From positions 609,220 through 673,219 of the forward strand of contig JAMPHB010000001.1 of NCBI GenBank assembly GCA_023663685.1: DNA of 64,000 bases. The letters are read 5' to 3'. The DNA is from Blautia sp. GTDB lineage: Bacteria > Bacillota > Clostridia > Lachnospirales > Lachnospiraceae. Position numbers and translations under genes: made by a program. Shown here piece by piece: positions 14,796-56,988 of this stretch (positions are counted from its first letter, which is position 1; each line of letters starts with the position of its first letter). The notes beneath the pieces were generated by a model that saw only the letters and a list, made by a program, of their open reading frames with translations, ran no database searches and was not told the origin of the DNA.

Positions 14796-14844
14796 AAGCT
14801 CATCCTCACAATAAACTGAGTTCGCGCCTCTGCGCATCATTAAA

Positions 14845-14875
14845 TAAAAAGGTGATACATCGTCAGATGTACCAC
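14845..14875 (-). terminator. terminator at the end of the tRNA-Thr repeat transcript
   Basis: Minus-strand stem GTGGTACATC / GATGTATCAC (ten pairs, one G-T, loop TGAC) followed by CTTTTTATTT. It closes the tRNA and repeat-array transcript before the membrane protein gene. Confidence 0.7.
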
Positions 14876-14882
14876 ATAACAG

Positions 14883-15058
14883 CAGGCATTGCAGCAGCCG
14901 CTGCAATACAAAGGAGCACATGACATGCAAAAAATCCTTCGGATTTGTCATGTGCGTAGGCATTGCAGCAACCGCTGCAATACAGAAAGCACACAACATG
15001 CAAAAAAATCCTTCGGATTTGTCATGTGCGCAGGTATCACAACTAACGTTGCAATACA
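14883..15058 (-). repeat. tandem 74-nt structured repeat array downstream of tRNA-Thr
   Basis: About two and a half copies of a 74-base unit (matching points at 14885, 14959 and 15033). Read on the minus strand each unit holds hairpin A, an 8-bp stem of the ATTGCAGC/GCTGCAAT type (15036..15055, 14962..14981, 14888..14907), and, between consecutive copies of A, hairpin B (14989..15029 and 14916..14955), a 9-bp GCACATGAC outer stem around AAATCC-GAA-GGATTT plus a T-run. Differences between copies preserve pairing: a G-C pair in hairpin A becomes A-U next to the tRNA, and two hairpin B pairs become G-U. The inner part of B resembles a terminator. No coding role is likely. Confidence 0.8.
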
Positions 15059-15060
15059 TA

Positions 15061-15133
<73 letters not shown>

Positions 15134-56899: not shown

Positions 56900-56988
56900 G
56901 TGATACCTTTCTTTGTTGTAGGGTGATACCCTTTTTTGTTGTAGGGCAATACCCCTTTGGGGCATTGCAAGCATTGCAAGCATTACAA
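56899..56988 (-). repeat. tandem repeats in the nusB leader (23-base and 9-base units)
   Basis: A 23-base unit containing TTTGTTGTAGGG and a GATACCC-like box occurs in full at 56912..56934 and 56935..56957 and partly at 56899..56911, so the nusB ribosome-site region itself is repeated. Next to it the 9-mer GCATTGCAA occurs twice and GCATTACAA once (56962..56988). No protein-coding sense is apparent. Confidence 0.7.

Follow-up and report, generated by a model that had tools for sequence, protein, structure and literature searches.

In the window, that is, the whole 64-kb stretch of DNA analysed here, the gene for tRNA-Thr(CGT) is followed by a short series of hairpins, and the locus raises the question whether this series is a chain of RNA structures belonging to the tRNA transcript, as a sequence-only reading had proposed, or a repeat of another kind. 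The series is probably a tandem array of a dispersed, two-hairpin, non-coding repeat, to which the tRNA is a bystander. On the minus strand the order is tRNA-Thr(CGT), A0-B1-A1-B2-A2 and then a terminator-like hairpin, listed here with the scores of R1, a covariance model built from six copies of the repeat:

15061..15133, minus strand: tRNA-Thr(CGT), called by ARAGORN and Rfam; neighbour of the array, outside the repeat family
15034..15057, minus strand: hairpin A0, 10-bp stem and 4-nt loop; folds alone
14983..15033, minus strand: hairpin B1, a degenerate copy; R1 match of 34.5 bits; folds alone
14960..14983, minus strand: hairpin A1; folds alone
14910..14959, minus strand: hairpin B2; R1 match of 62.4 bits, B2 itself being one of the six copies used to build R1; folds alone
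14886..14909, minus strand: hairpin A2; folds alone
14842..14875, minus strand: intrinsic-terminator-like hairpin (14875-14852) with a T tail, 3' of the array, from the terminator scan; also present in the sister genome G037

The tandem two-hairpin units described earlier behind the tRNA are real: within the array a 74-nt unit recurs about 2.5 times, with a period of 74 nt, and each hairpin folds on its own. The 221-nt stretch holding the array was predicted to fold at -96.8 kcal/mol (z = -9.4), a value matched in 0 of 200 shuffles. B2 consists of a CTACG foot, the outer stem GCACATGACA/TGTCATGTGC, an inner stem with a GAA loop, a bulge ending in CAT and a CTCCTT foot; B1 has a 10-bp outer stem with two wobble pairs, the inner stem AAATCC/GGATTT and a one-sided bulge. 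The compensatory changes that had been listed for A0 and B1 are present as well, since A0 carries A-T where A1 and A2 carry G-C, with both arms changed, and B1 has two wobble pairs at positions that are Watson-Crick in B2. A0 has wobble pairs of its own in addition. Elsewhere in the window, at 56941-56969 on the plus strand, a GTAG-tagged hairpin (GGCAATACCCC-TTT-GGGGCATTGCC) adjoins a 23-nt tandem repeat and resembles an A hairpin of this family standing alone.

Searching the own genome (G000) with the whole array gave no second copy at E <= 0.001. A looser search of the genus (E up to 10) returned two weak 18-nt matches, 80 bases apart on the same contig, which led to a second A-B-A-B-A array of period 80 in the same genome, between rpoA and rplQ (genes assigned by Pfam). 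Its outer B stem is nearly the same as that in the window (GCACATGCCA...TGGCATGTGC), and its inner stem and A hairpin differ. Further copies were then found in G056, G055 and G038. R1 was run on 62 genomes of the genus with stricter filters and no more than 95 candidates scored in each, its counts being lower bounds, and gave full-length B matches (E < 0.001) in 11 of them, with at least 1 to 32 matches each: G000, G001, G005, G010, G018, G027, G033, G037, G038, G055 and G056. The richest were G033 (at least 32 matches), G018 (at least 18 at E <= 1) and G027, and G037 had at least one. Only partial core matches were obtained in G020 and G053, and R1 at E < 0.001 had no match at all in the other 49 of the 62 genomes; the 51 without a full-length match at this threshold include several that are 99-100% complete. 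Among the carriers or their close relatives, all three contigs with names come from metagenome assemblies, and most carriers are incomplete.

The window, L098, L137, L138, L139 and 60 fetched regions made up 65 sources, with 89 R1 matches in 86 distinct rows, and the 89 matches were used to build a second covariance model, R2. Run on 329 genomes of the family, R2 was positive in six, with counts that are again lower bounds, no more than 20 candidates being scored in each genome: the own genome (at least 8 copies), G324 (at least 13), G186 (at least 11), G382 and G145 (at least one each) and G152 (at least one, weak). When the R1 and R2 lists were merged, the own genome was found to hold nine B copies at six loci. 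Copies in G186 are near-identical at several loci, which suggests that the family has spread recently in that genome. The copy number is moderate and dispersed, not hundreds per genome. Pattern searches were less productive: the inner-stem core pattern in 12 genomes and strict B patterns in 62 genus and 397 family genomes, taken together, recovered the own genome and one chance-like match in G180. Their low yield reflects overly strict patterns, as is plain from the copies that R1 and R2 found. An exact pattern had no match in genome_contigs, three patterns had none in viral_contigs, and an origin from a phage or plasmid was rejected, the array being without a match in the phage and plasmid collections. 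At the Rfam gathering score the repeat itself matched no family.

Seen across its copies, the family is a non-coding dispersed repeat of about 70-85 bp in which one hairpin directly follows another. The first, hairpin A, has its end at the motif CTACG. The second, hairpin B, comprises an outer stem, an inner stem around a loop of the C-GAA-G type, a bulge of roughly 7 nt with CAT at its end, and a CTCCTT foot. The 57 distinct A hairpins have stems of 8-18 bp, mostly 10-13, and loops of 3-5 nt. Hairpin A is counted among the parts of the unit because its frequency upstream of B is far above that in controls (of the 86 copies whose flank was long enough, 63 have a hairpin there with a score >= 10, as do 25 of 1028 control 50-mers); downstream of B the corresponding figures were 25 of 87 copies and 35 of 1028 controls. 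On the opposite strand, the foot of A in 84 copies read GTAG in 52 and GCAG in 15, and the foot of B was instead AGGA in 64 of 85 copies. Two or more B hairpins lay within 120 nt at 25 of 82 loci, and 26 of the 27 pairs of neighbouring B hairpins had the same orientation, with spacings of 50-104 nt (24 of them at 62-83).

A second subfamily of the same plan, with the feet CAGCGTC and GACGTTCC, was seen at L199 (501-624), L200 (501-554) and L232 (501-546). Its foot is reminiscent of the CGTC-tagged REPs, and the core matches in G020 and G053 may belong to it. Three copies in G010 (L188, L190 and L191) have longer similar flanks in common (ggcggacacgaatcat...), as if a larger segment had been copied.

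The earlier statement that pairing survives sequence drift gained strong support once relatives were added. In the six-copy set, pairing holds in 94 of 94 cells of the 17-pair structure, and seven pairs change on both sides, in rows that were padded by hand to align the stems and are biased towards structure. Among the 86 distinct copies, pairing was kept in 98.5% of 1233 cells, as against 70.5% in shuffles, and 303 cells showed double changes, where shuffles averaged 78 (sd 7) and 0 of 500 reached the observed number. Some double-sided change was present in 15 of the 17 pairs (12.0 in shuffles, with 15 reached by 1 of 500), and sliding the partners lowered pairing to 31-48%; the 86-row alignment was fitted to the model and leans to structure, but the controls are far off. 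Copies at what look like corresponding sites in different genomes (rnpB, tRNA-Arg, rpoA-rplQ, SRP RNA, the C22 locus and one further tRNA) gave 186 unchanged pairs; in 87 pairs both sides had changed, in 15 a single side via G-T, and 0 were broken, these comparisons being non-independent and the common origin of each set being judged from position.

Wobble pairs are distributed differently in the two hairpins. The second outer pair of B is T-G in 28 of 84 copies; with this pair left out, G-T/T-G and A-C/C-A account for 9 cells each among 1149. For comparison, G-T was found in 22 of 555 pairs of a tRNA control (26 distinct tRNAs from 38 fetched loci). In 70 A hairpins, scored neutrally, 51 G-T/T-G cells stand against 13 A-C/C-A cells, and since the wobbles of A are mostly G-T, the fold is better kept on the strand that reads A and then B. 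This asymmetry could fit an RNA role as well as single-stranded DNA. Purely Watson-Crick stems, which would have pointed to pairing at the DNA level, were rejected as a general description; they fit most of B and not A, which has wobbles.

The sites occupied by the repeat are diverse. A copy lies inside a structured RNA, or within about 10 nt of one, in 18 of the 65 sources (Rfam, with distances taken from coordinates by eye). Four genomes hold a copy in antisense inside rnpB (L139, L187, L194 and L215), at a position that we take from its sequence to be the P12 region. A cobalamin riboswitch has a copy inside it (L205), a lysine riboswitch is flush with one (L210) and the 3' end of SRP RNA is adjoined by one in L138 and L203. 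Copies flush with a tRNA were found in the window and in L185, L193, L196, L201, L211, L216, L217, L231 and L234. In L214 (G033:C70) an FMN-like riboswitch, seen by eye and not called by Rfam, seems to have a copy in its variable loop. In L293 (G324:C54) the gene for the ATP synthase gamma subunit (PF00231) is flanked by two copies, and the repeat seems to be in the atp operon of G324 too. A crude length rule placed 23 of 82 loci within an ORF, often spuriously. It is clear that the copies are dispersed, that their stems covary and that they form head-to-tail arrays.

Five of the six loci of the own genome were compared with the sister genome G037, whose two blocks beside the array match the window at 96% and 90% identity. 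Behind tRNA-Thr, G037 has one A hairpin and then the same terminator, A0 being the sole hairpin of the array common to both genomes. It has one A at rpoA-rplQ, one A and no B behind csrA, and the same A-B-A as G000 at the C22 locus. Behind the alanine racemase gene (L296, G037:C21:47831-48281) the 5' arms alone remain of both B hairpins, the two cuts being at almost identical positions. Pfam assigned the racemase and csrA genes, and the next genes look MazF-like and flagellin-like by eye. In G037, R2 found no B behind csrA or behind the alanine racemase gene, and an intact B is lacking at four of the five loci compared. The leftover arms show that the difference at the racemase locus, the clearest between the two genomes, is a loss in G037 and not an insertion in G000. 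The pairs of loci from G000 and G037 gave no clean empty site.

A family of this kind would most readily be understood as a non-autonomous mobile palindromic element, whose folded single strand would be handled by an enzyme in the manner of REP or IS200-type elements. A narrower form of this reading is possible, if on the doubtful side: it places the repeat among the GTAG-type, BIME-like REP families and ascribes its movement to a RAYT transposase, by now either absent through loss or divergent. GTAG REPs resemble the present repeat in being small clustered palindromes, mostly extragenic but in some cases within genes, with GTAG or GYAG at the foot, and in having subfamilies with alternative complementary stem residues (PMC3733652). 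The same paper lists GYAG among the degenerate forms, along with stem lengths of 6-13 bp, and the GTAG and GCAG feet of hairpin A (52 and 15 of 84) agree with this. The rule given in PMC6006769, that a GTAG-type tetranucleotide lies 0-2 nt away on the 5' side of the hairpin, holds for hairpin A and not for B; palindromic stems with a short loop and a dispersed, multicopy, mostly extragenic distribution are also found here. Unlike GTAG REPs, the repeat is a head-to-tail composite of two hairpins, B has the foot AAGGA(G), and the wobble pairs favour the opposite strand, that is, the CTAC strand and not the GTAG strand. REPs are recognised and cleaved in a strand-specific way by TnpA-REP, and the wobble asymmetry of the present repeat points to the other strand. 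The main text of PMC3733652 is without the words Firmicutes or Clostridi.

The RAYT (HUH/Y1) gene that accompanies REPs, often with the repeats on its flanks, was also not found in most carriers. Y1_Tnp (PF01797) was detected in 2 of the 11 carriers (G027 and G033), most carrier genomes being incomplete, and in 20 of the 51 other genus genomes. R2 had no match in 30 fetched Y1 loci (0/30), among which L243 and L263 (G033) and L247 (G027) come from carriers. A Y1 transposase was therefore not supported as the mobiliser, and membership in the REP family is unproven, since 9 of the 11 carriers lack this enzyme. Of four ORFs lying between neighbouring copies, Pfam identified one as a methyltransferase and one as ATP synthase gamma, had no match for the other two and gave no transposase. 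Flanks in G186, inspected for the target-site duplication expected of a classical MITE, showed matched direct repeats at some copies and not at others.

Other known repeats are likewise similar in part. BOX elements of Streptococcus pneumoniae are built of modular hairpin units in variable tandem copy number; their modules differ from those of the repeat, the two being likened by description. Minimal, non-autonomous elements of the IS200/IS605 type carry two end hairpins and insert in tandem. Hairpins with a short 5' tag are a further likeness (guide sequences are described in PMC8266576), whereas for the repeat neither a link to a transposase nor a defined site of cleavage or targeting was found, and no empty site shows the exact insert. 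Rickettsia palindromic elements, compared by description alone, also enter RNA genes, RNase P RNA included (PMC2229807), but they are 105-146 bp long with terminal inverted repeats, occur in Rickettsia and are often fused in protein genes.

A class of mobile element recognised almost wholly by its shape and spread in Lachnospiraceae without a Y1 transposase, by a single-strand nuclease or a polymerase-linked process, is a tentative and rather unlikely alternative. It would agree with the observation that the short feet, the loop motif and the bulge are kept, the stem sequence being rewritten freely. On the broader reading of a non-autonomous mobile element, A-B-A-B-A arrays would grow and shrink via recombination or replication slippage between A copies. 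Pairing in the stems may persist through structure-specific recognition, through template-switch repair in which one arm serves to restore its partner, or through both. Template switching has been proposed as a way to keep hairpins paired (PMC8794818), and we infer that the rewriting of both arms with few broken intermediates fits such a process.

An RNA element selected for a function in RNA, such as a 3'-end stabiliser of mRNA or tRNA, a processing site or an attenuator, and spread by duplication, is distinctly unlikely as an explanation of the family. Strong covariation, the preference of wobbles for one strand and positions at the ends of RNAs and between operon genes all favour it. However, orientation relative to flanking ORFs is mixed, with 12 sense and 20 antisense among the 32 of 82 loci that have co-directional neighbours (crude ORF rule), the copies in rnpB are antisense in four genomes, 51 of 62 genus genomes lack a full-length match at E < 0.001 and no Rfam family was assigned.

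It is very improbable that the array is a chain of RNA structures borne by the tRNA transcript or a set of serial terminators protecting the downstream operon, although it does lie between tRNA-Thr and a terminator-like hairpin. The same units occur away from tRNAs, at rpoA-rplQ, in antisense in rnpB and in a riboswitch, and a tRNA-specific array was rejected since the units are dispersed. Serial terminators were rejected too: the units adjoin many protein genes in both orientations, copies lie between operon genes and the T-run is not conserved. The inner B stem had been called terminator-like together with its T-run; the T-run is present, but it is no trait of the family, in which bulges such as CTTTCAT and AAAGCAT also occur, and the terminator scan of the array did not call B as a terminator. 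Unrelated sequence behind the tRNA in close relatives had been named as evidence against the tRNA-centred reading. The sister genome has one A and no B at this tRNA; at the other 21 tRNA loci inspected, out of 29 fetched (L003-L031), what follows the tRNA shows no relation by eye; and R1, run on 22 of these loci (L003-L024), found no copy behind the tRNA. The R1 scan did place one copy near the orthologous tRNA-Thr of G018 (L016, 1295-1341), some 160 nt ahead of the gene and so on the opposite side from the array in the window. The observation made from the sequence is confirmed and its tRNA-centred reading is not. Local tandem duplication of the terminator region with chance pairing, to which the two and a half units and the exact 74-nt period might point, has a practically negligible probability and is refuted by the dispersed family, in which the same structure and foot motifs recur at many unrelated loci.

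Because copies lie in diverse sites and in both orientations, the array is to be regarded as a dispersed palindromic repeat and not as a small-RNA array or terminator chain, and it is best accounted for as a small dispersed family of two-hairpin repeats, REP-like in plan. In literature searches that covered titles and abstract openings, mostly of open-access papers, no such repeat turned up for the Lachnospiraceae or Clostridia. If this account is true, a family with an unusual plan would be added to the Lachnospiraceae. The copies that seemingly occupy the same site with very different, still paired stems (rnpB, tRNA-Arg, SRP RNA and rpoA-rplQ) would offer a natural test of what lies behind compensatory change, selection or template switching, a point that studies of RNA evolution have yet to settle. 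The family is also a warning that strong covariation beside a tRNA need not imply a functional RNA.
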